Below, piece by piece: positions 8,501 through 60,900 of a stretch of 64,000 nt of DNA. Origin of the DNA: Asterochloris sp. CNOR1 (taxonomy: Eukaryota; Chlorophyta; Trebouxiophyceae; Trebouxiales; Trebouxiaceae); contig OZ017762.1 in the NCBI GenBank assembly GCA_963969365.1, positions 1,426,001-1,490,000 of the forward strand, read 5' to 3'. The position numbers were made by a program, and so were the translations under genes. Each line of letters starts with the position of its first letter. The first letter of the stretch is position 1. The notes under the pieces are model-generated. The model saw nothing but the letters and a program-made list of their open reading frames with translations. It had not been told where the DNA came from and did no database searches.

Positions 8501-10149
8501 CTTTCCTGGCATGCACAGGGGACATGTATGTGCTGATGCTCTGCCTGCCTCACGTCATCCCTGCTGTGCCTGCAGCCTCGACTGTGGCAGCGCTTGGCGG
8601 GTTGGGGCCTGTCCTGGTGGCTCTAGCACTGGGATGGTACATCTCGAGCACCGGACACCGTCTCTGCGAGGAGATGCAGGTGAGCCAATCCAGCTGGGCC
8701 TGCACCAGACTGCCCACGCAGAAGCAGCAGCACATGCCGGGCCTGGACCTGCTGGCCAGGCAGCTGCGGCGGCTGATGTGCTTCAAGATGTGGGCTGGCA
8801 GCCCCCTCCTGCCTTCCCTCCCCTTGCACTTGCGCTCGGCAGCCACCTTTGCCTCCCCTCCCCTTGCACTCGCGCTTGACAGCCACCTTCTGCCTCCCCT
8901 TCTCTTGCAGGCGCGTCCATGCAGGCCTGCAGAGTGCGGCGGCTGGTGGGATGCCTTCCTGCGCGCCACCCATCTGCGCAAGCGGCTGCCTCCCATGCCA
9001 CAGTGGAACATGGACCGGGCTCCCGGGCTGGCGGACGCAATTGATGAGAGCGCGCCCGCCCTCAAGTGCCCAATCCTGGACACCCTGCTGGTGGAGCCAG
9101 CCGTGCTGCATGGAGTCATCTTTGAGCGTCGGTGAGCATCTCTGCTGGCTGTGTGAGGGTGGCCTACTGGCTGCGCCTTATGCCAGACCATTGTTGGTGG
9201 AGTCAGCTGTGCTGCACAGGGTTACCGTGTGAGCCCGTTGAGGATCCTTGGTGGGGCTCTCTCTAATCTTCCTAGTGTGCCAGGCGGAGTCAGCCTGCTA
9301 GCTCATGAGCGCATGTACTGAACCCTTCACTTCTGACTGTGTGTGCAGCCACTTTGCAGCTGCTGTGACCTGAGCTAGTGACTGCGCTGGAGACTTAGAG
9401 GGTTGGTGGCATCATTGCAGCCCATGCATTGTTGATGCTGGAGGTGGTGGCTGCATCTGAAATTTGTCTGCTTTTGAGGCAGTCGAGGACAACTCACTGC
9501 ATGTCTGGAGGAAGGCAGCTTGCTGGTTATCACAAAGACAGTCTTGCATCAGTGCCGGTAGGGTTCGCTGTGCCCAGTGCTGCGGGAGTTACAACAATGA
9601 GCACTGGGAGAAGTGTATTGAGGGACATGTATTTGGAATTTTGCTGCAAACCTGATGCAAGCAGCTGCTGCGCCATGCTGGGCAGGGTGACACTTTGTGC
9701 CTGTGAGGGAGCAGCGTGCTTCAGCAGCTGCCTGGCAAGCAATGCTCATCCAGGCCATGCCCTCATGTGGTCCTGCCCAACACTGCAGCCACTGGGCAGG
9801 CAGAGGCATCACAGGCGTGCTGGAGCAATAATCAACTTGGAAAGCCCAGCTGTAGTTGTGTGGGCAGCCTAGGGAGCATGCAGCGCTGAACCTAGCGGCA
9901 TTTCTTTGAGCCCTACTCCTGGAGACAGCAGACAGCAGCAGCGCCCCAACAGAGTGTCAGCTACAAGGCTCTGCAAGTCAGCGAACTGTGTTGCCCTGCA
10001 GCGTCATTGAGGACTGGATAGACAGGGACAACACCCACCCCTTTACTAGGCGGAAGGCCTATCGGTCCCAGTTGCAGCCCTGCCCAGAGATGCAGGCACT
10101 GGTGCTGCGCGTCAAGGAGCTCCACAACTTGACTTTTGTCCAAGCTTAG
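5500..10149 (+). CDS. U-box E3 ubiquitin ligase-like protein (5' end and one middle exon unresolved)
   Basis: The last two exons join in phase to a U-box: LKCPILDTLLVEPAVLHGV, then FERRVIEDWIDRDNTHPFTRR, then a short tail ending in UAG. A U-box is a zinc-free RING-like fold that recruits E2-ubiquitin. Exons that close in phase: ~5,510-5,578 (LDRLVKFGLIAEQGG), 5,683-5,845, 6,247-6,404, 6,563-6,638, then ...-7,687, 8,576-8,679, 8,911-9,131 and 10,002-10,149. Between 6,638 and 7,687 the structure is unclear. The N-terminal part is helical and Ala/Leu/Gly-rich, possibly armadillo-like. The exon at 8,576 encodes a hydrophobic stretch (ALGGLGPVLVALALGWYI) that could be a membrane segment, which would be unusual for a U-box ligase. 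The intron 8,680-8,910 is a multiple of three and free of stops, so it could also be retained. Confidence 0.75.
8800..8910 (+). repeat. About 40-bp tandem repeat x3 that includes the 3' splice site of the U-box exon
   Basis: Units begin near 8,800, 8,841 and 8,881 with AGCC-pyrimidine tract-CTTGCA. The third unit ends in CTTCTCTTGCAG, the acceptor of the exon at 8,911. The repeat thus multiplies a polypyrimidine tract and a near-acceptor. Confidence 0.8.
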
Positions 10150-10511
10150 CATCATAACTTTTGTACAACAGTCCCCATCCCATCTTGTCTCCGTGTCCTG
10201 TTCAGTGGATGCACGCCAAGCTGCAGCTGCGCCTCTACAGATGTGTAGACTATGCATGAGGTAGCCAGATCACTTACACCGCTCACCCAGCATGCTTGTA
10301 TTCTCAGAGCAGCTTTCACGCCTGTAAAATTTCAGTGCACAGGAGAAGCAATGGCATGACAATTGCCAGCATGTGTCTCTTCCCTGGAAAAGCGTTCCCG
10401 GCTTGTACCTCGATACAAATGAAGGAGTGGCCAGCCTGCAACTTGCCGCTGTTGATCAAGTGACATTGCGACTGTTTCAGGCCATGACAAGCGTCGCCCC
10501 TGCTGTGCACC

Positions 10512-12356
10512 TCAACGCCCTGCTGCTACTGCAGTGCTGGGAGCCTTGCTGTTCTTGCCACCCTTTGCCAGCTGACCAGCCAGAGCTGCTGGGCTGGTGC
10601 TGTTGCTGGTCACGCAGAAGATGCCAGGAGAGCCAGAGGAGCTGCTTGCAATGGCATTGTTCAGGTCATCAGGGGCCTGCAGTGCAGCGGTGCAGGACTG
10701 CTGTCCCACAGGTGTCAAGAACATCTGCAGGTGTTTTGAATTCCTCAAAACAACCTGGCAAACAGCAAGCCCACTGCCACCTGTCAAAGATGACTGGCAG
10801 CAATGACAAAGAGGACTGTGCTGCCGTCAAGTGCAGCCATGTAAAGCTTTTAGGAGCCACACATTCTCCCAGCAGTTGGCCCTGAGAGCCTGGCAACCAG
10901 TTCACGATTCAGCGCACAGGTTGCTGTCTGACGGTGTGACTTATAGCAGAATGCGTGAAAGACATATGCAAACCTTTCCAGCAAGGGGCCCCGTGAGGTC
11001 AGCAGCCACAACGGTGCCATTGTTGGTCAGGCCGTCAAAGAGGCCATTGGGGCTGACAGCAGCACCACTGTACAGAGTGATGATGCTGGCGCCAGTCGGA
11101 GAGCCCTGCATGGCATCAACAGTACAGCACGCCATTGGTATAGCAATGATGCAGGTGCTGTGCATAAAGGAACAGTGGGTGGGTATGGCCCAGCAGATGC
11201 GTCATGCTGTCTGTCAGTGCAGCAGCGTATATTCGAAAGGACGCAGACAGAGGTTCAAGCGACTCAGCAACCTCAACAGACTGACTGTCACAGCCGCCTT
11301 TGCTGCATGGTGAGTAAACTGCAGATGGCCCCTCAAAGTGAGAGGACTGCCACTGCAACGTCACCAAGCTGCCCCACAGTAGGTACCACCTCATTCACAG
11401 CAACTCAGTCAGCCCATCAGCTGCAGGATGCACATTCCCACGTAGACATGTCACCTCAGCAGGCCAAACGTTGCTCAGACGTGCCTACATGTGCTGTAGG
11501 AGGCACTTGAGGTCGACTTCTTGAAACAGCTGGTTCAACGCCAGCTGGCCGTCACCTGATGCAGGGAGACTCTGGTGGCCACCTCTGTCCAAACAGCTGC
11601 CTGCCTCTCAGCAGGTCCCCACTGCCCTCACCTGCTGCAAGGCGAGCTGGAGGGCATGCGTCACAAATGCTGGCCCTTTCTACAAGTGCTGGCCCTCACC
11701 TGGTTCAGGGAGATTCCAGTGGTCTGGGTCTGCCCAAATAGGTACACCTTGACCCTGAGCTTGTCCTTGGATTGGCTCCATTTCACGCTGCAGTTGCCTG
11801 AGCCCCCAGCATTGGAGCCAGGCAGGCCTGCCCCTAGGGGCACCAGAGCTGCGCTGTACTTGTCCTTGCCATTCTTGAGCAGTCGCCTGCCGAGCACACA
11901 TTCCGTTCAGCCAGAGGCAGCCTGGCTCATGTGTGCCTCGAAGATCTCACAGCCTTTGCTTGCGCCAAATAGAGGTGGTGTGAGCGCACAGACAGGTAAG
12001 CACACTGTCTTGTGCCATCTTAAACTGCTCAACAGCCTCAGCTATGGGCCAATGTGGGCCAGCTGCCCAACGGTAGGGGTGATTGCCATTCATATGCAGA
12101 GGCGCCATTGCTTATGAATCTAGATTCGCCAGGTTGCTGTGCAGAGGGCGTCCTTCCGCCAAGTGAAGTCATGCCAAACTGAACTCACGCCCATCCTGAC
12201 GCCTTCCAAGTAGCACAGAGTGCCTCATGCAGGTGTGCTCTACACTTGGGCACAGCACAGCGCAAGCCTGCCTCACCTGCCAGATGTCTGGTTTGCCATG
12301 GCAGACATGGCCAGAACTGCAAGTGTGAGGCACATCACTGTCCTGCAGGTAGTCAT
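10512..12356 (-). CDS. Secreted CHRD-domain protein, tandem copy 1
   Basis: Four exons close in phase: 12,356-12,277, 11,886-11,700, 11,105-10,974 and 10,676-10,512, giving about 187 residues. Exon 1 is a signal peptide (CRTVMCLTLAVLAMSAMA), followed across the junction by SGRRLLK. Exons 2-4 form one CHRD domain (named after chordin): YSAALVPLG, KDKLRVKVYLFGQ, IITLYSGAAVSPNGLFDG, VVAADLTGPLAGK and the closing GIFCVTSNST...AALAGQL. CHRD domains are beta-rich extracellular modules; in algae and bacteria they occur in secreted or wall proteins of unknown role. The usual HIHxG segment is shortened to GSPTGAS, so a further small exon may have been missed. The copy-2 gene has the same exon structure. 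Confidence 0.87.
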
Positions 12357-12846
12357 GATGAGCTGTGTGCCAGGCTTTGGTTGCTGCCTGAGATGCCAAC
12401 AGCGGTTTCAGAGCAAGGCTAGAGATGCCTTCATTAGGAAATCTGACAAGCCACTCCAAGAAACTTTACAGCTGGGGGTTTTAAGTTTTTCAGTGATGTG
12501 ACTTCTGTCAAACCTTAGCCTCGTTGTTTCTGTACAACAGTCCCCATCCCATCCTATCAGCATTTCCTGTTCAGCAGGTAGCCAGACCATGTCTGAGGTA
12601 GCCAGACCACTTACCCAGCAGGCTTGTATTCTCAGAGCAGCTTTCATGCCTTCAAAATCTCAGAGCACAACTGTACAATTAATTAATGGCATGGCAGTTG
12701 CCAGCATATCTCCTCCCCTGGATGCAGCTGTCCTGGCTTGTACCTTGAAAGCTTTGAAGAGGTGGCCAGCCTCCAATATGCCGCTGGTGATCAAGTGACG
12801 ATGCAGATGTCTCAGGCCATAACAAGTGTCGACCCTGTTGAGTACT

Positions 12847-14675
12847 TCAGTGCCCTGCTGCCGCGGTGCTGCTTGGGGGCGCCTTGCCAGTCTTGCCACC
12901 CTTTGCCAGCTGACCACTGAGCGCTGCCGGGCTGCTGCTGGTGCTGGTCACACAGAAAATGCCCAGAGAGCCAGTGGAGTTCTTTGCAATGGCCTTATGC
13001 AGGTCATCAGGGGCCTGCAGGGCAGCAATGTAGGACTGCGAAGACAACACGTGTCAGTGTCAAGAACATTTGCAGGTGTTTTGAGTCCCTCAAAACAGCC
13101 TGGCAAACAGCAATTGCAAGCCCGGTGCCACCTGTCGAAGATGATGGCAGCAATGACAAAGAGAGGTGTGCTGCCCTCGATGATTGCGGCAATGACAAAG
13201 AGGGGTGTGCTGCCGTCAAGTGCAGCCATGTAGTAAGGTTTCAGGCGGCAGACCTTCCCCCAGCGGTCGGCCCTGACAGCCTGGCAACCAGCAAAGTGCC
13301 AAGAGCACCGGTGCTGCCTGACAGTGTGGTTACAGCAGACTGCGCGAAAGACACATGCGCACCTTTCCAGCAAGGGGTCCCTTGAGGTCAGCAGCCACGA
13401 TGGTGCCATTGTTGGCGAGGCCGTCAAAGAGGCCATTGGGGCTGACAGCAGCACCACTGTACAGAGTGATGATGTTGGCGCCAGTTGGAGAGCCCTGCAT
13501 GGCATCCACAATCCAGCAGGCCGATAGCAATGGTGCAGGTGCTGTGTATGAGCCACAGTGGGTAGCGGCCAAGCAGGTGCGTCAAGCTGTCTGTCAGCGC
13601 AGCAGCATATGTTCAGAAGGGTGCAGACAGAAGCTTAAGCGACTCGGCAACCTTGAAAGACTGTCACAGCCACACACCTCTGCTGCACTGGGAAGCATTG
13701 CACGCGGCCCCGCACAGCGGCTGGACCGCCACTGCAACATCACCAAGCTTCCCCACGCAAGGTAAGTGCCTCGTTGACAGCAACTCAGGCAGCCCATAAG
13801 CTGCAGGTCACACGCTGTGTCACACCCCAGCAGGCCCAGCTGCCCACATGTGCTGCTGGAGGCACTTCAACTCAGCACCTTAACAGAGCTGGCTCAACGC
13901 CAGCGGCGCCAGCACCCGATGCAGGGAGACTCTGGTGACCATCTCTGTCCAGACGGTTGCCTACCTCCCAGCAGGTTCAGCTGCCCTCACCTGCTGCAAG
14001 GCCCGCACCACAGTTGCTGGCACTCACCTGTTTCAGAGAGATCCCGGTGGTCTGGGTCTGCCCAGACAGGTACACCTTGACCTTCAGCTTGTCCCTGGAC
14101 AGGTTCAACATCACGCTGCAGTTGCCTGAACCCCCAGCATTGGAGCCAGGCGGGGGCGCCAGAGCTGTGCTGTACACGTATATGTCCTTGCCATACTTGA
14201 GCAGTTGCCTGCAGACCATAGAATCATTCAGCCAGAACCAGCATGGCTCGTTTGTGCCTCACAGACCTCACTCTGTGAACCTCAAACACCGTAGCTTGCA
14301 CCTAACCGAGGGCGACAGATAGATAAGTCAACTGTCTTGTGCCACTCAACAGCCTCAGCCATGGGCCAATCTGGGTCAGGTGCTCAAAGGTAGTGGTGAT
14401 AGCCATCCACAAGCAGGGGCACCACCGCCATTGATTTAGCCAGGCTGCACCAGGTGGAGTCATGGCATGACTTCACCTGCCGGAAGGTGAAGTCATGCCA
14501 AATGGAACTCACTTCTGCTCTGATGCCTTCCAAGCAGCATGGAGTGCCTCATGCAGGTGTGCTGTTCACTTGAGCACAGCACAAGCCTGCCTCACCTGCA
14601 AGATGTCTGGTCTGCCGCTGCAGACATGGCCAGAACTGCAAGTGTGATGCACAGCATTGTCCTGCTGGGAGTCAT
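12847..14675 (-). CDS. Secreted CHRD-domain protein, tandem copy 2
   Basis: Exons 14,675-14,596, 14,208-14,028, 13,494-13,363 and 13,014-12,847 close in phase to about 186 residues. Signal peptide RTMLCITLAVLAMSAAA, then a single CHRD domain: KDKLKVKVYLSGQTQTTGI, NIITLYSGAAVSPNGLFDG, IVAADLKGPLAGK, GIFCVTSTSSSP and ALSGQL. Every splice junction and the stop correspond to copy 1, and the frame is intact in both, so both genes appear to be under selection. Differences gather in exon 2 (ALAPPPGSNAGG here against ALVPLGAGLPGSNAGG in copy 1) and in the Ser/Thr-rich tail before the stop. Confidence 0.87.
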
Positions 14676-14790
14676 GATGAGCTGTGCATCAGGCTCCTGT
14701 TGCTGCCTGAGACTGCAGAAAGTATAAGGCAAGGGTAGTGATACCCTCAGGGAATATGACAAGCCCCTCCAAGAAAGTTACAGCCCAGGT

Positions 14791-15690
14791 CAAGCGTCTC
14801 AGCAATGTGCCAAGTGTCTGACAAGCAGGAGACTGGACAAGCCAGCCGCCTCTCCCCTGTTGCAGCCTGACTGACAGGATGCTGTAGCTGACATCCTGAC
14901 AAGTCATTGCACCTTGCCGATCATCTGCAAATGTCTGATAAGCAGAGGGGCCCACGGTTGGTGCCTCACATGGCCAACAGCCGCCTGGCCTTGCACACTT
15001 GATGGAATGCCATGGTCTTACAGGTAGATGACACAGCAAGTAGAGCACAGTCTGCGACAAGCTTGCTTAGCCTGTGACATCTGCGCTGAAGACAGCAAAA
15101 TGTCATCTTGGGCTAGCGCTTGCCGGCAGCAAGCATGCCCTTCAGCACATCAAAGTGCTGCCAGCCAACTCTTGTTCTGCCGGGGTCATCGGGATGCAAG
15201 CTCGCGCTCAGGCGAGCTGCAGCGTTTGTGACAGAAGTCCTGTGCATCACAGTGGCTGACAGGGGGCTGCTCTCTTGCTGCTGCCAAGGACGCTATGCTT
15301 GTTGAACAGCCTGCAGCAGGCGAGCTGCTACATCTCAGAAAGGCACACCGCCCTGCATCCAAGCAGCAACGCCTACCAGAGAAGCCAATGCCTGAAGTGC
15401 AGCTCATACAGGTGTACACAGCGACAGGAAACAACAGCAGGCCCCGAAGCTTCCTCATAGGCCAGCCTAGTGTTCCTGTCAGGGAGCTCTGCAGACAGGT
15501 GAACAGCGCCATGGTTCGACCCCAAAGGTCACGTTCCAAGCTGCAGCACCTCACAAAGAGTCGGCGTGTTTCAAGGTGTACATCCTTGCCAAGGTTGCCT
15601 CCCCTTAGCCCCTCTTCACAGAGGGGCAATCTGCCCCAAGAAGGCCTGAGCGTTTTACTGGGCCCAGCCTCACCTGCTGCGGGGAGCGTC
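14791..15690. other. No recognised gene
   Basis: Between the second CHRD gene and the 3' end of PEX4. Open frames on either strand look like chance; part is probably the PEX4 3' UTR. Confidence 0.5.
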
Positions 15691-15696
15691 CTCTCC

Positions 15697-16899: not shown

Positions 16900-16999
16900 G
16901 CTGCTGCTCTCCTCTCGTGTGTTGCTCTGCTGTCTCTCGAAGCCCAGCTTGATTACCCAGAGTCCCACTTCTTAGTCACGAGTGCTTACTTGACCAGCC
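16900..16999. promoter_or_regulatory. Divergent intergenic region between PEX4 and the anticodon-binding-domain gene
   Basis: Only 100 bp separate the two start codons, which point away from each other, so the promoters must overlap or be shared, or each 5' UTR is very short. I see no TATA box. Inferred from gene positions only. Confidence 0.5.
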
Positions 17000-19756: not shown

Positions 19757-19783
19757 TGCTTGGGTTCCAATGAATGCTGAACC

Positions 19784-22700: not shown

Positions 22701-24615
22701 CATGTGCTTGACACACCAAGGACAGTGCCTGGCACTAGCATGCCATCTGCAACCTGTGGCAGGGGCTCACCCAGCAGCTTCCTACCACAGATGCAGGCAG
22801 CAAAGCACAAACTTCAAGCATTGCCCCAGCAGCATGAACATTGAATGCACGTGGTGCAGCCCCCACAGGCCTTAGCTGCCAAGCACCAGGGCCTCCCAGC
22901 AGAATTTCACAGCGCCCAACTGGAAGCATGAACAATGCTAAAGCTGCAGCAGCAACTAATCAGCAGCTTATGATGTAGAGTCTCCTGCCTTTCCCGGCAA
23001 CATGCGACTTGATGCAATCTTCTCAAAGCGCTGTTTTGCCATTGTAGAGCCCACACAGCAGCTCACCAAGCAGCATCCCATTGTACTGAAAGTGAATGTG
23101 GTCCACCAGCAGCAGGCCGGGGCTACCCAGGACCAGCAGCCAGGCCAGGTCGCTGCTCTGCTTGCTCATACGCCTGCAGCCAAGTCAGGCAGGCTGACCT
23201 GAGCCCAGACACTCAAGGGTTTCTGCTGAAAGCCAGGCTGATTCAATCCTCTACCATCTCAGGAGCCTGCAGGCACAGGGGGCACCCCAGGTTGCTGCCA
23301 GCCATGCACGAGTTGCTGCGCATGTGCAAAATCGCTGGCCTACGGCTCATACTGTGACGCATGTCTGTTAAACTGAGCTTTTGACTGGAGGTTGCTGCTC
23401 TGCTTGCCATTATTGCCTGCAGGAGACACTGAAGGGTCATGCAGTCAGAGGCTCTGCGATCTTGCGCAACCATCAATATACAGTCAGGCCAGGTGGGACT
23501 CTGCTTGTGGAGGTGCTTGCAGGGGGGGACTGCACATTAAGATATGGCACATCACAGCACCTTGTCAGTTCTATCTGCTGCCTGCTGCCTGCACAGCCGA
23601 TATGCTCTGAGGCACGTCAACCAGGCAATCAGCGATCTCTGTTGTTCAAGATCTGAGGTGCGTTTCCACGTCACAACAAAGCAATGCAAAGCATGCATCT
23701 TCAAGCAGCAGGCTCCTGCAGTTGCTGCCCCGCCTGTGGCGCTGCTCAGCAGAGCATTGAGTCACACAGACACATGCAGCTCACCTGGTCATGTAGAGAA
23801 CAGCAGTGACCAGCACCAGCTCTGAGATAATGACGCTGAACCTCTGCAGCAGGTGGCAGACACTGAGTGCAAGAGTCCTATCTGCACAGCATGCTCAAAG
23901 GTGAGGCCAGCTGGCAGTACCTGCGTCCGGGTCAGAAGCTTTGCAGCTCCTTGCACCAGCATCTACATGCTCTATTTGGACATGTGCATGCACGCCGCTG
24001 CATATTGCTGGGGTGGTTTCCGGACAGGGATGCTGTTGTATCAGAGAAAGGTCACCAGGACAGGGCTGCTACTTACTTGGCAAATTGACTTGACTAACTT
24101 CTCAGCAGCAGACTCATCTCAGCGAGGTCACCTGAAAAATGATTGTGCCCTGGCTGTCATAGTTCAGGTTGTGGACTTGGAGCATGGCAGGGTCCACAAA
24201 GCGAGCGACCTGAGACAGCAGGAACTCGAACCAGGCAAACATGGGAGGGTAGTCCAGCGTCCACTCTGACGTTGCCTCAGTGTACCTGCGGAATGACAGG
24301 TTGCAGCAGCGCATCATCTGGAGCACCAGCAGCACTTGCTCTCTGAGCACTGTCTGCAACACTGCCTCCTAGGCTGCTGGAAGCAAGTTGCTGGCCCTGC
24401 CACACAGCACATCTGTTTGGCAGCAGCCCCAAACGCAGCTCTGGAGGGTGATCTCCACTCTGCAAAATAGACTGAGCGTACCATTGCCTCATTGGTAGGC
24501 TGTGCGTGATTGCCATCCAGTTCCTGTGCACCTCAAAGTCAGTGGATCTATAAGCTGGCACCAGCAGCAGCTTCAAGGCTGTCACTGCCAACAGAAATCT
24601 CATCTTCAACCCCAT
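19784..24615 (-). CDS. ALG8: Dolichyl-P-Glc:Glc1Man9GlcNAc2-PP-dolichol alpha-1,3-glucosyltransferase
   Basis: Eleven exons close in phase to 502 residues (human ALG8 has 526): 24,615-24,482; 24,285-24,132; 23,843-23,785; 23,173-23,067; 22,276-22,132; 21,861-21,759; 21,507-21,354; 21,139-21,022; 20,746-20,643; 20,448-20,336; 20,101-19,784. The enzyme adds the second glucose to the lipid-linked N-glycan precursor on the lumenal side of the ER, using Dol-P-Glc. Diagnostic segments: [20 protein letters not shown] (lumenal loop with the catalytic Asp), [50 protein letters not shown] and [29 protein letters not shown] together with [20 protein letters not shown] points to ALG8 rather than ALG6. 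The protein is multi-spanning. Its stop lies 27 bases from the stop of the convergent neighbour. Confidence 0.95.
22041..22133 (-). repeat. 31-bp tandem repeat x3 spanning the 5' splice site of ALG8 exon 5
   Basis: Units start at 22,041, 22,072 and 22,103 (CGTCAAGGCAGGCCCGGCC-type). On the coding strand each unit repeats the exon 5 donor context: AG|GTGGGTCTCAG at the real donor, then GAGTGGGTCATAG and GAGTGGGTCACAG downstream. Confidence 0.88.
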
Positions 24616-40199: not shown

Positions 40200-40203
40200 C
40201 AGC

Positions 40204-40207
40204 TTTT
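40204..40207 (+). terminator. RNA polymerase III T-run terminator
   Basis: TTTT starts five bases after the discriminator base of the tRNA-Gly, where a Pol III terminator is expected. This supports the tRNA ending at 40,199 rather than near the first T-loop half. Confidence 0.65.
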
Positions 40208-43600: not shown

Positions 43601-46600
43601 CCTCACACACCAATGGCTGACGAGAGTGAAGCAGTGGGCCCCCACCTGGTGAGCCTGCAGCACGTCCCTGAGGCGCCCCTCATCCAGCTGCGCTGCCAGC
43701 TGCTCCCGTGCACCCTTGGCCTGCTCAGGCAGGACAGCCAGCAGCTCCTGCCCCATGCCTGCCAGAAGTGAGGCAAGCTGCCCTGCCAGCGCCGCCTGCC
43801 CGCCTGCAGCGAGGGCATGCCCACAGTCGGATTTGCAACATGCCCTGCCAGTGCCCAGATCCACTCTGCAGCCACCTTCACTCACACGTTCTGTGAAGTC
43901 AGGTTGCCACATACATCAATTATGCTGGGCTGCCCAGTGGCGCAGCCATGCTGCAGCAATGCTCCAAGCAGGCCTCACCCTGGGTGCTCTGGGGCTCCGC
44001 CAGGGATGCAGCCACGCTGTCCCAGAACGCCTGCTCTGCAATGCGCCTGACGCGAGTCTGCACGTGTGCTGCGACCTGGTCGGGGCTCATGGACGCATCG
44101 GGCTGGTCCCCCTCCTGTACGAGCAGTGCAGTGTGTTGCAGCAGTGTCAGTCACGTGCCTTGCGTTGGCTCATGGTGGCAAATAACACACCACGCCAGCT
44201 CATATGAAAGTGGTGAAAAGACCAAGCCGTGTAGGGGGTGCCGCCTCAGCTCACATGCAACTGGTGAAACCCCAGCAGGGCTGCTTGCGCAAATGCAGTT
44301 AGCACAATGTGCCACTCCACTCCTGGCAGCCCCTGCAGCACCATTGACTGACCTGCATGACCGAGGTGGTCCCTAGGGCATCGCTCCAGGCCAGGTCCAG
44401 CTCCTCCGTGGGCAGCCGCCACCTCAGATCATACAGCAGCTCCCAGGCCATCCTGTCATTGCCCAGTGCACTGCTGCTGGCTGGCCCCTCTGCAGCTGGG
44501 GCTGCTGCCGGTTCCCGGGTGGGGCTGCTGCTGGAGCTGCTCCCTGCATCAATCAGAATACACATCATGAGAAGAGCGGGCTTGCAGAGGGCCTTATCCT
44601 GCACGTTGAGGGACTCCATGGGGGGTTTTGGCAGCTGCCAGGCCTGATGTCTACTGTCTGAAGAGCCCGCATGCAAGCTCTGCACTCACGGACTAGACCT
44701 GCCCAATGAGAGCTGAAAGACTGCCTGAATAGTGCACAGCTGCCTTGGCTGAGATACATCTTTCCTGCTGCCCAGCCTTAACACAGAAGCAGGAGTGCTG
44801 CACTGCGGCCCTGCGCGACACATCCTGCACCCACAACAGTGCACACTGTCAGCATCAGTAGGGCGCTTGCCTTCTGCTGCTGGGCCTCACTGCAGCGTCT
44901 GCAGGAGATGTGCTCCGCCTGCCGCAGCAAAACCACTGGACCACAGTCAAAACCTGTCCAGTGTGCACCGTCACCACCACTACTACCAACAGATGCCTCT
45001 GTGAGGCACTGTCTTTCTGCTGCTCAGCCTGGCTTACCTCCTGCAGGCAGCCAAGGCAGACGCAAGAGTGGGGTAAAGACAGTCACACAGGGTAGCAATC
45101 ATCTCAAGCAGCTACCTGCCTGAAGCACTCGTGTTCTCCTGTTGATCAGCCTCAGCTGCCGCGCGGGCAGCCGCCAGCCCAGCTTCCAAGCGGGCAATGG
45201 CTCTGCGCCCGCCCAAGCGCAGGATCCTTGTCCGCAGCAGGGCATGATCTCTCTGCACCTGCTCCACAACAGCCTGCAACAGGGCCAGACGAGTGATTTT
45301 TGCAATTAGAAGCAGGACCACGCAGGGGCTGATGGTTGTCATTCGCTTTCGGCTGTGACATAAAATGCATGCTAATTCAGCTTAAGCACTTGAACCAGAC
45401 CAGGAGCAAGCAAGTGGCATCCTACAGTTTCCTGTGCCCAACCAGGCTTGCAGATAAGCGTGATACAACTCATCCATCACATAGCAGCAAGTGTGGGCTC
45501 AACCGCTGCGGGCAGGGCCAATTCATGGCTGTCAACACACAAGCTGAGCATAGCAAGGCAGACAGCCAGAACCTGGCTGCAGGCAGCAGGACAGCTGCCA
45601 TGAACAGCTGCAGCCCAATTCATCAACAACCCAGCCCACATGCAGGTCCTCGCTGCGCTCCCTGAGAGGCGGTCCATCCCCGCCAGTCTTGCCCAACATG
45701 CTGACCTCCATCTCAATGGCCACCTGCACAACCAGGAGCTGGAACTGGGCTCTCCTGAGGCACAGCTAGCAGGCTGGAGTGCATGTGGAACTGGGGAAGT
45801 CTTGCATCTGTGCAGCTGCCGCCCTGCATAGTGGCATATGCCAGTCCCAGGTGCAGACAGCATAGAATATTATGCATGCCTTGCATACTCTGTATGCAGG
45901 GACATTGCATGCAGGATCGGCAGCAGAGAGGCGTCTCTGGTAACTGTCAAGGATGTCATGCAGCAGGGCCCCTTCGAGAGCTTGAACTCCCCCTAGGATG
46001 CACAGCGCCTCACCATGATGAGCACAGGCTCTGTTACTGCCTTTGTTTAGAGCCTCCTAGGTCAACACCTCACCTTGATGAGCTCAGCCTCCAAGGAGGC
46101 AGCATCAGCAAACTTCCATGCCACAAAGCGCTCCAGGTAACGGGCCCAGGCAGCGTCAAAGGCCACCAGCAGCTGTGAGGTCGGCTGCGCGCCCTCAGGG
46201 GCAATGGGCACTGGACTGGTGGTACCAGATCTGCAGGCAGAGAATGTGTGGGACCTCAAGTTCACTGGAGTGTCAGATACACACGCCCTCTTTAGGCCGC
46301 CCAGCAGGGCCACAGAGCTGCCCAGGATGCTGCAATCTTGCACAGCAAAACTGGAGGAGTTCACTCAGCAGCAAGCAAGGCACTCAGCCCATCGCAGAGT
46401 ATTGACAGCCCAGCTAGGTGCCCGACCAGGGCATCAAAGCCGACCAGCATGTTGCTGCCAACAGCCATCAAAGCAGAGGTGGCATCCCCTGGTGGCGTCC
46501 TACATACTCCTTTGCTTGACCGACCTGAGATTCTCCGCCCGTGGCCCGGCCAGTTGGCCCAGCAGGGTCTGGAAGCTGGCCAATATCCCGCAGCCAGCAG

Positions 46601-49600
46601 CTGTGCAACAAGCGAAGCACCCCAAGGACAACTCTCTGGAAGCCCCTCTGACTCACCTGGGAGTGTCGACAGGTCCAGCCAGGCGCGCCAGTAGCGCCTC
46701 AAAGCTGCCCAGCATGGTGCTGCCAGCAGCCGTCAAAGCATCCTCTAGCTCCCCCTGATGGTTGAACACGGTCTGGGGGTGGGACTGCACCATATAGGCG
46801 CACAGGAAGATCCGTGTGGGGTAGCGCTCCAGGTGGCCACCTGCAAGACCAAGAAAGGCAGTCAGAAAATCAGTTTGAATCAGGTAGCATCCCGCGCGGG
46901 CACCTGAACAGCAGCAAGAAATGAGGTACAAGTTTCAGGGCAAGCCACTGACACAGTGAAGCTGGTGGGGTACCATAATGTACTGAACAGGTTCCTGGGA
47001 TGAAGCAGTATCCCAGGAATGCAATGCCTTTAAGCAAAACAGAGCAACACGCGCAACTGCCATTTGCCCAGGCAATCATTCACACAGGTGCAAGCTTAGC
47101 GCCATGATAGGTACCAGCGGCTCTTCAGCAGCAAAGTCAGCACCAGGCTCCCCTAGCATGCAATGCATGCGACTGCTTCACCTGACCAGGCGGTCTAGGG
47201 GAAACAGGCGCTGCAGCAGCTTTGACAGCGCCCAAATGGCCATCATGCAAGGCAGAAATCCTAGTCCCCATGCTGGGAACTGCCTGGTCTGAGCAGGCAG
47301 TCTTTGTGGACAGACGCTGCAGCAGCCAAGGTCAGCGCCATTCTGCCCAGCATGCCATGCAGGCGTCCTGACCATCCATCTGTCTGTCTGTATCACCTGA
47401 GCGGGCGGTCTTGGGGAACAGGCGCTGCAGCAGGGGGGCAATGTTGGCCACGTTCTGCTGCTGCAGCCGCAGCTTGACTTCCAGACGCGCCAGCAGGGCC
47501 TGCAAGCAGGCAGCACTGAGCGTCATGAACACTGTCTGCACTGCAAGCACTGTTTTCGTACGTCAGGTGGTCAGCACCATCAGCCCCTGTCTGCATGGCC
47601 CCCAGGGGGACTGGTGCCCAGCACTTGCTTGCATGGGCATAAGGGTGGCTGGAGACTGGATGCCTAAGAAAAGTTTGCATCAAGCGCGTCTGGTTCAATG
47701 TGGGCTGGTTGGCACTCACAGGCAAGCACGTTGCCTGCATGGTCATCACAGTGCCTGCAAATTGGAAGCCTTGGCACTCACAGGCAAGCACGTCGCCTGC
47801 ATGGTCATCTCAGTGGCTGCAGATGGTAAGCCCTTGCAGCACTGGTTCACTCTCAGGGGGAAGCAGATGCTTACCTGTGCAGCCTTCAATGTGGCCACAG
47901 ACTGGATGGCCCTGGCAAATGCCTCAAAGCTGTCTGGCTTTGGCTCGGCAGTCTCCAGCCCCTCTGCTGCCCCATTCATGATCCCAGTCTTGACTCCCAT
48001 GATTGCGATAGCAGCCCCCTGGGCAGTCGCAGGCTCATCCCTAGCGGCAGGCTGCTCAGACTTGAAGGGGGTGTTGGGTGCCATGGCTGGTGGCGTGGCA
48101 GGCGTGGCTACCTCCTCCTGCACTGGAGCCAGTGCCTGCAAACACAGTGGAGCAGTGAGCCAGGGCCCTCTTGCCGGCAGAGGAAAGGGGTGTTGAGGGG
48201 TGCAGCTGGTGCAGATGTGCACACGCTGCATGAGTGAGCCAGGGCCGTCCAGCGAGGACTGGCACGTTGTGAGGGGCAACGGGTGACACTCTGCAGTGGT
48301 GCTTGAAGTGGTGCGCAGCAGGAGGCGGGCAGCTCAGACTCTGGCAGGCACCTCTGGAAAGGAGCGAAGTGGAGCAGCAGCCCGCACTGTGACTTGTGTG
48401 TCTAGAGCTTTCATGGTGAGTTCAACATCTCCCTGACAGCATGCACCAGGTAACACTGTGGATGAAAACTGCTCCAAAGAATGCTGCTTTGGTGCTCTTG
48501 ACTGTTTGTACCATCCACCACCATGTGTGTTGTGCACCAGCGCTGCACAGTAGCACGCTGCCAATCTAACAACCTCACCTGTGGCAGCTTGACCCCTGTG
48601 ATCCCCGTCTCTGCAACAGAGACTGCCAGCGCATGGGTGGTTTGCCTGCGTTTCACAAAGCCCCGCCACATGCGCTGCAGCTTCCGGCTGCTGCCCTGGC
48701 GGCGCAGCCACACCCGCAGGACCGCTCTGCAGCACAAGGGGACACCTTGGCAGCTGAAGGGGAGTGCATCAACAGCAGATGTGCAGCTCCATGGCCGTCT
48801 GGCAAGCATGCAACGCTGGTACTGCTGCACCTGGTGCTGCTTTGCCTGCCATGTGGCAGCGTCGCTGCTGCAATGACACAGAGTCATTTGGCACCCTTCG
48901 GGCCCCTCAGATGCGCCATGGTGCAGCACGGCCATACAGCCGACTGCGATGCTGCTGGCTGCTCTGCTGCTGCAGCAGGGCATGAACATAAAAACGAGTC
49001 ACAAATTTTGGAAAAGGGCACCCCTCATCACCCAGGCACGCACCCAATTGAGCTGCAGGTGCGACCAGATGCATAAGCGACCCATCACTATGTCTGCGCA
49101 ATGGCACTGCTTTGTGAGAGGCATGTGGAACTGTTTCCAGGCTTTTACACCTCTGTCCAGCGCTCAAGTCCCCATTTGCCCGCCACCCACATCTGCCTGG
49201 CATGCACACACCTGCGCTGCAAGTATGTCTTGTCCCCAGGCTGCCCTGGCCCCGCTGCCAGCGCAGCTGCTGCCAGCCGAGCCTGCCTGGCCGCCTCTGC
49301 CGCCTGCAGCCGGGCTCTGATGCGGGCTGCAGCCTGGGCCGCATCACTCTGCTGGACTGCCAGACGCTCTGCTGCCTGCAGGCACCAGTCCTGTGTCGTT
49401 GGCAACAAGCCTTGGCCTTTGCTGGGTGCTAAGTCTGGGCTGCTTAGGCCTGTCCCTCTGCCAGGTCCTCAGGGAGTCCATATCCATACGCAGTTTAGTG
49501 GGCAGCCAGGTTTGGATGACATGCACCAAGCAATGCACCAAAGTCATGGGCAGCACAGCTCCCAGAGCAGCAGGCCCCCATTTACAGCAGGACAGCAGGT

Positions 49601-51688: not shown

Positions 51689-51751
51689 ACGGTTGCTATC
51701 CGCAGCCTGCTTCTGTCTGAAGCCTTTGCTGGACTGCAAGCAGCTGCACAG
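51689..51751 (+). pseudogene. Decayed copy of the signal-peptide exon of the RxLLQ gene
   Basis: The 63 bases ACG..CAG|GTGAAC encode TVAIRSLLLSEAFAGLQAAA, matching the first exon of the gene at 52,165 (VAIRSLLLAGAFAGL) at the same length and with its donor, but the ATG is now ACG. Likely the remnant of a tandem paralogue about 475 bp upstream. Sequence to about 51,860 keeps weak likeness to later exons. Confidence 0.75.
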
Positions 51752-52164
51752 GTGAACCCACAGTACCGGTGCAGGAGCCTCATCTGGGGGTCCTGCTCAG
51801 GGACTTTTGGCAGCAGCACTGTGACTTGGGGAGCATTGGCAGCGGCGCTGTGACCCGTTCACAGGGGCAGTTGCTCTCATGAAGGTTGGAGTGGGTCAGC
51901 ACCTACTACCCCATGAAGGACAGGAGCCGCAGCTGCTGTCGGAGTGAGGCACAGGTGCAAGAGGGGGAGGATGACCAGATGAATCCTGATCCAATCTAGT
52001 CATGGTCCACTTGGCCGTGCACTGAAACTGCACAGCAGCCTGGATGTGCATGGGGCTGGACAATATGCTGGCATCCCTTCATAAGCTCACCTTGGGAGCG
52101 TCAGGCATCACTTCTCAACCACTCCCTCCACCCTTAGCTCCCTTCCTGCTCCTCAGCAGCCGCT

Positions 52165-53303
52165 ATGGTCGCCATCCGCAGCCTGCTCCTGGCTGGAGCC
52201 TTTGCTGGACTGTCAATAGCTGCACAGGTGGGCTCACAGCCATGCTGCAAGAGCTGTTGTGCTTCACTCTGCAAGTGCTGACCCTGTCGAACTGGCGGAC
52301 AGCAGCAGCGCTACACCTTCTGCTGACAGGGCAGGCTCACAGTTGCTTGCTGGCGCCGATGACTTGTGCCTTTCCTGCTTCAGAAGGAGCCCGGCCGCCG
52401 TCTGCTGCAAGAGTCCCCGCCACCACCCACAGGCGATGCCGTGCTGTTGAACACGGTGGGTGCAGTGCTTGCCAGCCTGCCCTCTGTCAGTCCACAGTCG
52501 CACAATAGCACCTTGTTTGCAAGCCTCCTGTGGACTCACCTGGCCACTGCATGTGCTGGCAGAGACCTTCCTCCACCACAGCTGCAGCAGCTGCCACTGC
52601 ATGTTGACAGGTTGGAGCCCCGCTGCAGGTCCAGCAGAGCCTTCAGGGCACTGTGGGAGGAGCTGTGAGTGACGCGACTGGCCTCACTGCATCCCTCACT
52701 GGCATCGGCGGGCGCCACCTCCTGCAGGGGCCCCTGCCCCCGGTGACAGACCAGCTGGTGACAGCTCTCACCAGCGCTGGAAGCGCTGTGGTGGGCGCTG
52801 GGACTGGACTACTCGGCACTCTGGAGGTGCTGCCGTCGCCACCGGCCAGGCACCTGCTGCAGGAGCCCCCGCCACCACTCACAGGCGATGCCGTTCTGTT
52901 GAACGCGGTGGGTGCAGTGCTGCCAGCCTGCGCTCTGTTTACATCCCAGTCGCACAACCGCACCTTGTTACAAGCCTCCTGCGGACTCACCTGGCCACTG
53001 CCTGTGCCAGTGGAGACCGGCTCCCACCACAGCTGCGGCAGCTGCACTGCACGTTGACAGTTTGGAGCCCCGCTGCAGGTCCAGCAGAGCCTCCAGGGCA
53101 CTGTGGGAGGAGCTGTGAGCGACGCGACTGGCTTCACTGGATCCCCCACTGGCATCGGCGGGCGCCACCTCCTGCAGGGCCCCCCTCCCCCGGTAACAGA
53201 CCAGCTGTTGACAGCTCTCACCGACACTGGAAACGATGTGGTGGGCGCCGGGACTGGACTGCTCACCACTCTGGAGGTGCTGCCTACGCCACCAGCCCGC
53301 TGA
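52165..53303 (+). CDS. Secreted repeat protein with four RxLLQ-Pro modules
   Basis: Four exons, all phase 0: 52,165-52,227, 52,384-52,455, 52,611-52,907 and 53,061-53,303; 224 residues. Exon 1 is a signal peptide (VAIRSLLLAGAFAGLSIAA). The rest is made of repeated modules: GRRLLQESPPPPTGDAVLLN, GRHLLQGPLPPVTDQLVTAL, ARHLLQEPPPPLTGDAVLLN and GRHLLQGPPPPVTDQLLTAL. Between them stand GAPLQVQQSLQGTVGGAVSD and VVGAGTGLL.TLEVLP stretches. No family recognised. An RRLLQ-like motif is often seen right after the signal peptide of algal secreted proteins (from memory, not checked) and may mark propeptide cleavage; here it recurs four times, so a multi-peptide precursor is one possibility, a structural wall protein another. 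Confidence 0.72.
52396..53303 (+). repeat. 450-bp intragenic tandem duplication that includes an intron
   Basis: Copy A is about 52,396-52,846 and copy B about 52,847-53,303. Matched donors are 452 bases apart (52,455 and 52,907) and matched acceptors 450 apart (52,611 and 53,061). The intron inside also matches (AGTCGCACAA.AGCACCTTGT against AGTCGCACAACCGCACCTTG). The protein repeats therefore come from a recent genomic duplication spanning an intron. Confidence 0.9.
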
Positions 53304-54979: not shown

Positions 54980-57900
54980 ATGGTGGGCTACGAGAAGTTC
55001 CAGGGCGAGAGCACGCCGCGGCAGCGGAGTCATGATCTCGAGCTGTCCCCCCAGCGCCCGGGTGCCTGCGGGTCTGTGCAGTGGGAGCCCACATCACAGC
55101 AGGAGCAGGCCCAGCTGCAGGGCAGGGAGGCTCCCCTGGACAGCGTGTTCACCGTCAACCAGCTACAGGTGGATGAGTATGCCAGGCTGCAGAGTCTGCC
55201 TTATGCTGGACCATGCCCTCCGTCAGGCAGTTGCCGGGCAGTAACTCCCCCTTCTCGCCCCTCAGCACCAGAATGAGGTTGGCTGGCTAGAGGTGGTGGG
55301 CATGCAATGTGTGGTGGCATGCTCACATCACATGCTGCAGATCCAACAGCTGCATGGAGGTCCGCCCTTGCAATGGGGGCAGCTGCAGGCTGCTCAGGCT
55401 GCTGCAGGCGTGCATGAAGAGTCTGCCAGATGAAGACCTGTGCAGTGGCAGCGACCACAGCTGCAGCACCTTGTGCCAAAGAGCCACACCGCATGGCAGG
55501 GCCACCTCCTGGGCTGCGGCAATGCTGCACACCTGCAGCTCCATTCAAAGCTTGTGGGCGTCTGATCGCTATGGCCCCTGCATTGCTGGCACTTCATTCC
55601 CTATGCTCTTAGATCTGAGCCCCGTTGGCAGCCCAACCTCATGCTGGTGCTGAAGCCCTGTTTCCTGCAGTGCTACAAGGCTGTTCTTCAAACTTGTGGT
55701 GCAGGCTGTGCAGACATGGCAGACCAAGCTCAAACTGATGTTGTTCCACGGCGGCTCCAGCACAGATGCCTGGTTCACCATGACAGCAGCGCAGGTGACG
55801 AGCGTTCGGGTGGTGCTGTTTGTTGTGTCAGTGCAGTATGGTGCTGCTAAGCTGCACCTGTGTAAGTGTGTTGCATGGGTGGTAGCCGAAAACGTGAGAT
55901 TCATGGTATGGAAGCAGGGTCACAGTGCGAATCGCAGGCTGTGTGTATAGCCCAGCTTGCCTGAAGGGTGCCTTGTGCTTATTGATGTGTGCTGCCACGG
56001 CGTACTGGACAGCTGCAGGGTATTGCATGAATGGATGGCCTTGATTCGGCTGCCTGCTTGCCCGTTTTCAAATGTGTGCTGGCAGCTGTGGCCTGCGCTG
56101 TTGCTGTGCTCAAGTGCAGTAACACTGAATATTGGAGCAGTCTGGGTGGTCTCAGGTAGCCAGCCTATATTAACGCTCAAGATTGAAGCCACAGGGCCAC
56201 GTACAGCTGCTGTGTGTTGCAGGTGGGGCAAGCCCTGCTGACCATCCCATACAGCATGGCGCAGCTGGGCATGGCAGCAGGAGTTTTGGCGCAGGTGAGC
56301 TGGGCAGAGAAACTAGCACTGTGGCCTTGTGCACTGCCTGCATGACCACCTGTATGGCAGCATGCATGCGCCTGCTGGGCATGGCAGCAGGCATCCAGGC
56401 GCAGGTGTTCTCAGTGCATGAAATGGCAGTGTGGCCGTTGCGCAAGTGCCCACCTGATACACGGTGCGAGGCCTTGCATATATTTCCAAAACCAGTTGGC
56501 GCCTGCCGCCCCTCTGCACATTCATCCACCATACTTGTCTGCCCTGTCAGCCCTGCAGACAGTCTACACCGCAAGCTACCTCTGAGCTTGAGTGGCATAC
56601 ATGCAGCATGACATGGCACTGGCTGGCTGCGCCCACAGCGGGCACACTGGCTGGCACCTGGTTTTTGGTTGCCCATAGATTCCTGTACTGGTGTCGCTTG
56701 TGCATCCCATTAACTCAAACAAATGCCCGCATGTGTGCAGCTGATATATGCGGGTATGGCAGCATGGTCAGCCCTGCTCCTCAATACATTGTTTCTGGAG
56801 TACCAGGCCAGCCACCGCGCACCACATGACCCTTTGGCCCACATGGAGCACAATGGACAGGAGACTGGAGATAGCAGCCCGCATCAGCATCAGGAATCAG
56901 CTACCAAGCAGCAGGAGCCTGCCAACCTCAAGTGAGGCTGCTTATGAGAGCTCAAATTCTGCTGCACAGCAGAGTAGGGCCTCTACCTCTTGTCATGAGG
57001 GGCTGAGGATTTGTTATGGGCTGGCGCCGCATAAAGCAGCAATGCCAGGCCCTAAGAAGGTGGTGGCACTGGCTGCCGGGGCTTGATAGCCTTCATCAAG
57101 TTGGGCATGGCACTATGAATGCTGCTGAACACCAGGGGCCATGGAAGCAACAACCAGGAGGCAGCCTTCTGTTGGATGGCCATCAAGTCAACATCTCCTG
57201 CTGACTAGCAGCAGTGGCAGCAAGCATTCAATCTAGTGCCATGAGCCGCATTCAGCTTCAGCGGGCGTCATTGCCAGCAGCTGCCTAAACAGAGAGCATG
57301 AAGGCCAGTACCCCAACAGGTGGGCGCGCTGACACCCCCACCCATTCTGAGGCTGCCCTTCTGTCGCTTTCTGTGCATGCTGTTGTCACTCATTCCATCT
57401 GGGCCTGTCTGTCTGGAGTGACTGCAGCAATAGTGCCAAAGCCCGGCTCAGCAACCGAGCAGGACAGCTTCATGGGCTATGAATCGGCACTCATACCTCC
57501 CTGTTTCCTATGCCTGCAGCAACAGCGAACATCAAATTCAATACCATGAAGTGCTGGGCGAGTTGACAGGCCCAGCCATGCGCCATGCAGCCCTATTTTT
57601 TAATGTGACCTCCCTGCTGGGCCTGACAGTCGTGCAAATCATTGCGTGTGCCAGCGATGCTTACTACCTCTGGCAGGGCCTGACAAAGAGGTGAGCCATG
57701 TCAGCATGGTGGCCACTCGTGTTGCTGATTGCTCTGGCACGGCCAGATCAGGTGGGTCGCTCTGGGGAGCTTGGTGGTGTATCTGCCTGCTGGAGCTCAC
57801 AGCGGTACAGACCTTTGCCTGTGGCTGCCACCCCAGCAGTCTGTGAGAGCTAGAGCTGGACTGCACAAGGGAAAGGCCTGCTTGCCCTCCAAGCCGACTC

Positions 57901-60900
57901 AAAAAGCTGCTCAGCAGTGAAGAGCAGGGCATGCGGCACAGCCGCTAGCATGCTGCAGAGTTGTACCCCTCAGCATGCGTATGACAGCATATGACTCGCC
58001 TCTGCTTAGATGGCCAGTGTCTCTTGAAGCAGAACAGCCAGCTGTGCAGCTGTACAGGTACAACAGAGCCAACCTGCCATGCCTGTTCCCCTGCAGGTCA
58101 TGGGCCATTATCTTCAGTATCCTGGCGCTGGGTACTACCTTCCTGCCCACCTTCTCAAACTACCGGTCAGCTGTTGTGTGACATCACGCTTGCTTTCTTG
58201 AACAGCAGCTTGCGTGTTGGTTCTTGTAGCCACTCCCTGCATAGGAGCAGTCAGCTGATGTAAACATACATGCTGGCTGCTTTGGCTGTTAACAATTTGC
58301 CAACAGTGCTGGTCTTGAATTTCTGGAATGGTGAACCAGTGGGCACCATCTTTCCCTCCCTGCTCATGCTGGCCAGCATAGCCATCCTCTCTTGACTGGA
58401 CATGTCTGGGTTCCATGCAGGGTTTTTTCTGTTGTCGGAGTGGTGGGCACTACCTTCACCTCCATGCTCATGCTGGCCACCAGTGCCACCAGTGGGCCAC
58501 TGCCAGGGGTGACGCGGACAGGGCCCCCCAGCTTTGAGAAGTTCTGGGTCGGCGCCACCAACATCCTTTTTGTTTTTGGAGGTCACGCCATGTGTGTTGA
58601 GGTGAGCCTGTGCTTTGATCTTGGCTTGTGGGGGGGGAGTTGGAGATCCTGTGGATGCAGAAGCTAAGGCAGAAATCATTTTAATTGAGCAAGTCAAACA
58701 GTTGAGGGTAAGGAGGTCATGCCCTGTGTATTGTGGTAAGCTTGCGCTTCGGTCTCGACCTGTGGGAGGAGGTGGTCTGCAGGGAAAGGCACGACAGACC
58801 GCTGGCACTTGAAGGGCACGCCATGCGTGTCCAGGTCAGCTGGGAGCTTAGGCCTGTGGGACAGCTGTCCCGGCGGAAGAGACAGGGCAGGTTGGGATGA
58901 GCCGCTTGGTCTCAGGGGTCATGCCATGCGCATTGACCCGTCTTGTGCTATTAATGTAAGCGCTGTGCCTGGGGCCGTACGTATTGTCTCTTGCAGCACG
59001 CCATGCATGTCGAGGCGGGCATGCGGCTGAATGGACCCCCTGGGACTTTTTGGTCTGGCCAGACCCGCCCATTCTGTTTGTTTGGTGGGTACGCATGTGG
59101 GAGTGGGGCATGCGGTAGAGGGCAGCTCCCCTGGGGCTCCTTTGTTCTCAACATCTCTGCAAAGGATGCTCACAGGCTATGGCTGGCCTTCAGCTTTGCC
59201 GGGCTGTGCACAGTCCATATTGCAGCAGAGCTCTGCAGAGGCTGCATCTCTGCAGGCTCACATGCATTCAGAGGGTTGTGTTAGGATCCAGCACATCCAC
59301 TCAGGGGTTCACGTGCCTCGCATGCAGGTTGCACTTTTGTGAGAGCAGTGCTTGCGCACTGGGCTAGGTGTCAACTGCACAAGGCAACTGTGTATGGCAG
59401 CCTGCTCCAGGTCCAGCCCACCCTGCTGCAGGTCATGAACGCCATGTCCAAGCCTGACAAGTGAGTGTCTGCAGCATTTTGCAGGACACTTTGCGTATCA
59501 CATATTCTGCCTTGTCGACTTGCTTGATAGTACGCAAGCCAACTTCATGTCCATCTCTGCAAGAGAACATGGCAGGCCTGCAGTCATGTCATGCTGCCCA
59601 ACTGTCTAGATGCACTGCCATGCCAGCTGCACCGTTTGTCTCAGCCAGTCAGCACATGCTTTATGTGAACCTCCCTGCAGCCTGGCTGCCATTGTATGTG
59701 CACTGTATGCAAAGCTGTCAAGCATCCGAAACAGGCTGAGCAATGCCAGGTCCCTGCAGATTTCAGTTTGTCTACCCCCTGAGCAGCATCTTCATACTGT
59801 TTCTGACCGTGCCTAGCTCAGCATCGAGCTATTTTAGCTATGGCGACACCCTGCTGGACAATGCCAATGTGTTTGGAGTGCTGCCGGCCTCACCGGCGCG
59901 GTCTTTCGCAGTGAGCCTGGAACCTTCAGGGCTTGTTGCTGTGCATCTCCCCAGTGCTGCTCAGTGTGCATGGCTGAGCTAATGCCTGCACAACAGGTGG
60001 TAAATGCTGCTTTCTGCTGCTTGATGATGCTGTCCCCTGCTATTGCTCCCCATCTCAACTTTTGAATATGAGCCTGTGTCAATTTGGCCTCCCCTCACTG
60101 CTGTGCACTGGCTGTTGGTGCAACATCAGGGCTGTGATCAGGAGGGTCCCCGCTGCTGCTGTCTCATGCTGCACACCTCAGGCATGTTCATGAGGCACAT
60201 TCCATCAGGGCTGCAATTTCGTGCAGAAGCAGCCCAGCCAGTCCTTGCCAGACCAGGGCCTACAGTCCAGGCACAAGCTCTGCCATGCTGCCCACATCTG
60301 CAGTTCAGCTTACTATCTGTTGCCCTGACTGCAGATCTGCCTCATGATTGCGCATCAAGCCATTGCCTTTGGGTGAGAGCTCTGAGCCTGGCAGCCATGG
60401 CATGCTGTATCGGGTGCAATCACCTTGTTATGCTGCCTGCTGTTGGCCTGGCAATGTCTGAAAGAGCAATTGTCCTGTGGCCTACAACCATCACCCACTC
60501 TGCAGAGCCAAGCACGTGCTTCTCCTGCCTGGTTGACTGCTCGCTGCTGTGCAGGCTGTTTGCACTGCCGCTGTTCTACGCCTGGGAGAAAGTTGTGGGC
60601 ACCCATCAATCCCCCTACTGGATACGCGTGCTGTCCAGATTTCCTGTGGTCGCCAGTGTGGCCCTACTGGCCCTGGCCTTTCCCATGTTTGGAGTTGTCA
60701 ATAGCCTCATTGGGGCGCTGACAACCTCGTTCTCGTCGTATGTCATGCCATCAGCAGCCTTCCTCCTGTTCTATCGCAGCCCAGAAAGGCAGGCCGCCAC
60801 CGCGAGGCAGCCACTGACATGGTTGGGGGGCTGGAGGGGCATGTTTGTGGTCTGTTGGGGGGTCGGCCTGTGGGGCCTCATAGCAGGCTTCCTTTTGGGG

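Follow-up and report, generated by a model that had tools for sequence, protein, structure and literature searches.

The introns of a 64,000-nucleotide (nt) stretch of the genome of the green alga Asterochloris sp. CNOR1 (positions 1426001-1490000 of contig C17; here called the window) contain decayed copies of the ends of the exons that they adjoin, many of which run across the GT or AG splice junction. We refer to these copies as echoes. They are present far above the level expected by chance, as a preliminary description of the window had proposed. We consider it probable that they are mostly old, decayed short tandem duplications of an ordinary kind, which fell at more or less random positions and were not aimed at splice sites. 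The genome comprises 56.4 Mb in 21 contigs. We examined 324 kb, made up of the window, 60 kb of flanking sequence on the same contig and 200 kb of contig C1, and the counts below refer to this sample. Positions are those of the window unless a contig is named.

A self-trained gene finder predicted 52 gene models with 701 introns, with a median length of 119 nt for exons and 235 nt for introns. All of the models are ab initio, made without transcripts. The predicted introns have the donor CAG/GTGAGC (the slash marks the junction), with about 7% GC donors, and a very strong acceptor CTGCAG/G. Local repeats were sought by self-comparison in 3-kb tiles, with second- and third-order Markov shuffles as controls; self-BLAST is probably blind to pairs spaced by less than about 50 nt. 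We found 123 direct short-range repeats, compared with 1 and 4 in the two shuffles. There were 34 inverted repeats, of which 32 were self-palindromes, and the shuffles gave 20 and 27 inverted. About half of the repeat pairs have a spacing of 60-150 nt, and the fullest bin is 90-120 nt.

The exon ends and starts were then used as 60-nt probes against the adjoining intron, scoring matches of at least 16 and taking the expectation from the introns of other genes. The 148 of 701 introns shorter than 120 nt were left out, as were probes from exons shorter than 60 nt, so that 437 and 438 of the remaining 553 were kept. The last 60 nt of an exon were copied in its own downstream intron in 35 of 437 cases (0.3 expected), and the start of an exon in its own upstream intron in 21 of 438 (0.5 expected). 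Exon parts lying 60-120 nt from the junction gave 3/201 (0.9 expected) and 1/207 (0.7) in the same test. Probes taken from the introns themselves matched in 15/412 cases for the start (0.5 expected), 10/312 for the middle (0.4) and 7/412 for the end (0.9). The matches occur on both contigs sampled, with exon ends giving 17/294 on C1 and 18/143 on C17, and exon starts 8/295 and 13/143, and they are present in 24 of 51 testable gene models. Echo-bearing introns are longer, with a median of 433 versus 271 nt for exon-end echoes and 504 versus 268 nt for exon-start echoes. This is expected if echoes add length, and the earlier suggestion that they account for the long introns is therefore plausible.

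Clear arrays are carried in the window by a TCP11-like gene, which encodes a protein with a Tcp11 domain in its second half; the first half gave no family in the Pfam check. Three of its exons have three, three and two echoes, in steps of about 100-135 nt, and one of its introns holds a younger duplication:

41966-42040, minus strand: exon end, source of three echoes
41866-41925, minus strand: echo, 72% identical
41751-41794, minus strand: echo, 86% identical, GTGA kept
41623-41699, minus strand: echo, 74% identical, GTGA kept
46657-46760, minus strand: exon end, source of three echoes
46517-46604, minus strand: echo, 66% identical
46377-46475, minus strand: echo, 74% identical
46294-46333, minus strand: echo, 78% identical
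47397-47480, minus strand: exon end, source of two echoes spaced by about 107 nt
47289-47346, minus strand: echo, 73% identical
47144-47219, minus strand: echo, 75% identical, GTGA kept
47709-47838, minus strand: younger head-to-tail tandem duplication of 62 nt inside an intron, copies 88-90% identical

In the AUX/LAX gene a single exon end has three clear and two weak echoes, all within the following intron. The clear echoes score 32 (at 58712), 20 (58809) and 16 (58984), and the weaker ones 14 (58906) and 13 (59070). Two further echoes lie elsewhere in the gene:

58542-58601, plus strand: source exon end (..FGGHAMCVE/GTGAGC) of the array
58712-58769, plus strand: echo comprising exon end, donor and 34 nt of intron, 78% identical
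58809-58840, plus strand: echo, 81% identical, overlapping predicted exon 58783-58834, judged false
58906-58974, plus strand: weak echo, 65% identical, score 14
58984-59023, plus strand: echo, 76% identical, score 16, containing a predicted 18-nt exon (58997-59014), judged false
59070-59099, plus strand: possible echo, score 13, near noise
56364-56436, plus strand: echo of the end of predicted exon 56223-56294 with its donor, 71% identical
58339-58384, plus strand: upstream echo of the start of exon 58421-58591, 83% identical

The gene finder called two of these echoes as exons. Alignment to auxin transporter protein 1 shows an insertion of 20 residues, into which most of the amino acids encoded by these two predicted exons fall, and we therefore judge both to be false. 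The same alignment suggests that the true donor lies at 58601/58602, where the gene finder had ended the exon at 58591.

The copies are direct, they include intron flank, and the youngest examples are head-to-tail tandems. The latter comprise a 79-nt unit with 93% identity that spans an acceptor (112562-112729 of contig C1), the wholly intronic 62-nt unit of the TCP11-like gene (88-90%) and a 450-nt unit with 87-88% identity (52402-53297). The aligned part amounts to a median of 0.5 of the spacing in the 77 best pairs, and the head-to-tail form is not directly visible in old pairs. Few of the copies are young and still have their edges intact. Global alignments of the copies ran mostly along the shared flank, and were used by eye only. 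The identity between echo and source is 0.70-0.80 at the exon end, 0.51-0.53 at the donor positions and 0.32 over +6 to +13. At +2 to +6 it is 0.53. Simulated tandem duplications gave 0.31-0.56 at these positions over four settings, and 0.45-0.56 in the two closest, while a simulated exon-only copy gave 0.26 in both settings. Copying of the exon alone, for example through RNA, is disfavored because the similarity continues past the junction.

If the intronic copies decayed freely, their differences from the exon should carry the mark of one constrained copy, not of two. Mismatches between echo and exon numbered 239/1042, 185/1042 and 301/1033 at codon positions 1, 2 and 3, in a comparison that left out pairs with a copy longer than 600 nt. 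Dividing the Jukes-Cantor distance at position 3 by the mean for positions 1 and 2 gives about 1.55 by hand calculation, and a free echo paired with a constrained exon is expected to give 1.64 from the simulation rates. The ratio is far from that for two constrained copies, so that on these rates the echoes look unconstrained, and no coding constraint on them was found in the codon-position distances, which fit one constrained copy. This bears on a rival reading, in which the copies are alternative exons in tandem, retained for alternative splicing. Some copies are indeed predicted as exons, and where the junction lies inside the alignment GT or GC is kept in 26 of 38 donors and AG in 21 of 30 acceptors (counting columns with an intronic counterpart). 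Yet the excess at third positions is close to that expected from a single constrained copy, and the AUX/LAX echo exons are mostly an insertion relative to the known transporter. When the junction is extrapolated, 15 of 35 donors retain the core, a share that the simulations also give (0.20-0.51), and 11 of 21 acceptors retain it (only donors were simulated). Nothing in the sequences indicates that echo splice sites are kept for use, and we think it very unlikely that the echoes are alternative exons. The part of the preliminary description that proposed short tandem duplication followed by decay is thus upheld by the direct copies, the head-to-tail form of the youngest, the similarity across the junction and the apparent lack of constraint.

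Our preferred reading of tandem duplication and decay would work as follows. Short head-to-tail duplications would strike a gene-dense genome at more or less random positions. Given exons of about 119 nt and introns of about 235 nt, a unit of around 100 nt would often span an exon-intron junction. Duplications inside an exon would usually break the protein and be lost; those internal to an intron or covering one junction would be tolerated, with the original junction presumably still spliced. The exon copy would be held by selection and the intronic copy would decay freely, a view that the codon-position comparison supports within the terms of the simulation. The exon would then serve as a lasting, readable reference for old duplications, and intron-only duplications would become unreadable sooner. 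Repeated rounds would generate arrays of several echoes and may have lengthened the intron. The duplications themselves could have arisen from break repair or replication.

The preliminary description had the duplications anchored at splice sites, and suggested comparing the self-matches with random positions. On that comparison 77 of the 123 repeat pairs include a predicted junction, where alignments placed at random give 48.5 +/- 4.9 (maximum 62 in 500). However, random placement is the wrong null, since the surviving alignments are shorter than the duplicated unit, and we replaced it by simulated duplication. Random tandem duplications were laid on the annotation, those breaking exons were removed and exons evolved slowly; in later versions splice motifs were slow as well. 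The family and simulation counts use the pairs spaced by 50-400 nt, which excludes 17 of the 123 and gives 77 families. These divide into 44 that span a junction, 17 exon-only, 16 intron-only and none intergenic. A random model with fitted ages, in three settings, predicts 30-35, 24-30, 12-18 and 1-3 respectively. The families that contain exon sequence number 61 of 77, where the model gives 56-64, so that the total involvement of exons needs no special mechanism. The excess of junctions over random placement is thus largely predicted by random tandem duplication, with a unit longer than the alignment, loss of exon-internal events and a constrained exon copy. The random placement of the duplications is supported to the extent that this model holds, and anchoring at splice sites is not supported, though the difference in junction-spanning families remains.

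Several observations weigh against this reading. Even with fitted ages, the junction-spanning families exceed the prediction by about ten. Donor echoes reach the junction in 26 of 35 cases (0.74) where four tandem settings gave 0.28-0.65, and the identity just inside the junction is 0.70 versus a simulated 0.39-0.63. Uniform (constant-rate) ages fail, giving 31-33 intron-only families over five settings versus 14-16 observed of 77, and a ratio of exon-end to intron-middle matches of 0.5-0.8 compared with the observed 2.5. Settings with old events only, and no constraint on splice motifs, overshoot with 54-60 exon-only, 14-19 junction and 1-3 intron-only families. The best-fitting age distribution was itself fitted to scores and lengths, not measured. 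Columns that are exonic in both copies have nearly the same codon-position pattern as the echoes (74/356, 63/359 and 95/352), so that the test leans on which copies are real exons, and the ab initio gene models include false echo exons. Lastly, the spacing modulo 3 of exon-involving pairs is uneven, at 30:21:44 for remainders 0:1:2, possibly by chance. The residual excess at junctions might come from a longer constraint on the splice flanks, from false exon calls or from a mild real preference.

Such a preference would be expected if exon ends were preferentially duplicated by a mechanism acting at splice junctions, such as breaks or nicks that accompany transcription and splicing, or microhomology between CAG/GTG and CTGCAG. 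The raw excess of pairs over junctions, the junction-spanning families above the best random model and the donor echoes aligning to the junction would all be explained. In addition, 16 of the 24 best pairs with at least 80% identity span a junction and 5 are intron-only, versus about 40% and about 50% in a simulation with young ages. The position of the junction within the copied unit argues otherwise. Among 58 single-junction copies no fixed junction position was found; the exon share of the copy, divided into fifths, is distributed as 7, 11, 7, 17 and 16, where the uniform-age model is flat at about 10-13 each. All fifths are occupied, with more copies towards the exon side and no boundary at the junction, and this argues against a fixed edge. 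Moreover the copies include intron flank, and intron-only tandems exist, including one of the youngest (47709-47838). We therefore regard junction targeting as unlikely.

The echoes are mostly old. Exon-end matches with a score of at least 30 number 2 of 35, compared with 42-47% under a constant rate, and exon-start matches 1 of 21. Of 18 arrays with a period of 50-150 nt found by Tandem Repeats Finder, in counts made with no shuffle control, one has copies at least 90% alike, two fall at 80-90% and the other 15 under 80%. Judged by the number of old ones, a constant rate would have left several times more young tandem duplications of 50-150 nt than we observe. Either the rate of duplication fell in this lineage, or the decay model is wrong. 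Short tandem duplication with a certain bias towards junctions, perhaps from breaks in transcription or splicing, could have lengthened introns genome-wide in a past episode that then largely ended, but we find this account rather improbable.

Two other origins can be weighed from the position and distribution of the copies. One is intron gain by tandem genomic duplication, in which the doubling of an exonic AGGT turns the sequence between the copies into an intron, so that its end repeats the end of the upstream exon. This route has been well documented (PMC3443670, PMC2891723), and the repeats often contain AG/GT. However, donor and own acceptor are similar in register in just 1 of 701 introns at a score of at least 12 (0.07 expected) and in none at 15 or above. 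Nor does the junction lie within 10 nt of the opposite splice site in any of 35 donor or 21 acceptor echoes. These counts contradict such intron gain as a general origin; single old cases are possible, but we consider the explanation highly unlikely.

The second is that a dispersed repeat or introner family was inserted in many introns. The echoes match their own neighboring exon. In a genome-wide search of four arrays, the only ones tried and with very common words skipped, three matched only themselves and the fourth had one extra match, of 73 nt, on another contig. That match and a 110-nt inverted pair (34027/37951) are all that could be cited for such a family, and neither is of weight; we think this origin extremely unlikely. 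By the same searches, the earlier statement that one unit recurs in different genes fails at the level of sequence. The inverted pair (34027-34136 and 37839-37951, 84% identical) is separated by about 3.8 kb, and a genome search with one copy found only these two places. In the U-box model, a 73-nt stretch at 6960-7032 has an 84% match at 940496-940568 of contig C15.

Echoes had been ascribed to at least five genes of the window, and the Pfam check of the models gave U-box, Alg6_Alg8 (covering almost the whole profile), Glycos_transf_2 and Aa_trans. The echoes are clear in the TCP11-like, U-box and AUX/LAX genes, weak in ALG5 and at most marginal in ALG8. ALG8 has one exon-start match with a score of 17 (intron 23174-23784), and a 31-nt unit present three times within an intron. 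In the merged WD40/ALG5 model, matches occur at the threshold score of 16 (introns 36972-37605 and 33314-34237). The remaining features, including those of a tandem gene pair, are:

9192-9254, plus strand: U-box gene, echo of the end of exon 8925-9131, 75% identical
7343-7481, plus strand: U-box gene, two upstream echoes (7343-7420 and 7430-7481) of the acceptor and start of exon 7568-7687
8436-8617, plus strand: U-box gene, acceptor-like site and exon start duplicated 106 nt apart, 78% identical; both copies are predicted exonic and either may be the live one
36250-36876, plus strand: ALG5 region, copy pair 36250-36340 and 36787-36876 starting at an acceptor-like CAG/GTC, 73% identical, both predicted exons
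11544-11596, minus strand: in one gene of the tandem pair, echo of the exon end at 11700
13890-13970, minus strand: matching stretch in the intron of the paralogous gene, with a weak match (score 13) to its own exon

The tandem pair consists of copies of about 2.3 kb that are 74% identical, at 10130-14784 on the minus strand. The intron of the second gene matches the echo of the first over 80 nt with a score of 53, so that this echo is probably older than the gene duplication. The first exon of a small predicted gene, with its donor (52167-52254), has an 80% copy 476 nt upstream (51691-51778), and the same gene holds the 450-nt tandem duplication at 52402-53297. At 1-3525, minus strand, there are reading frames that we take to be reverse-transcriptase/endonuclease-like, of the non-LTR (long terminal repeat) retrotransposon kind.

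Where exons and introns are both short, as in this genome, exons can act as preserved references that reveal old tandem duplications beside them. The rate and timing of a common and quickly erased class of mutation might thereby be read over longer times, and the shortage of young copies, if confirmed, would point to a fallen duplication rate in the lineage. There is also a practical warning that gene finders can call echoes as exons, as happened in AUX/LAX.

Among the matches listed in a search of the literature, made in a collection without preprints or most subscription journals, none describes this pattern in green algae. Intragenic duplications that copy exon-intron boundaries have reportedly been described before; here existing introns hold dead copies, and no creation of introns is seen. 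Zhuo and others (2007) are said to have found alternatively spliced introns that arose from tandem arrays in human genes. Those arrays would be alike in containing splice sites, but nothing observed here points to use of the echo sites. Tandem duplication with AGGT is a known route to intron gain (PMC3443670, PMC2891723); our repeats resemble it in involving AG/GT but lack its mark of homology between donor and acceptor. A close parallel is with small tandem duplications, which PMC8355091 attributes to fill-in and end joining at staggered breaks, and calls the commonest short insertions (<100 bp) of the human genome. The two are alike in being direct head-to-tail copies of tens to hundreds of bases with no target family. 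They differ in that the copies here are mostly old and decayed, and are seen through the exon that they overlap, with 77 families in 324 kb. We would therefore file the echoes as a dense and mostly old set of ordinary short tandem duplications, a known class of mutation, viewed through the exons that they overlap.

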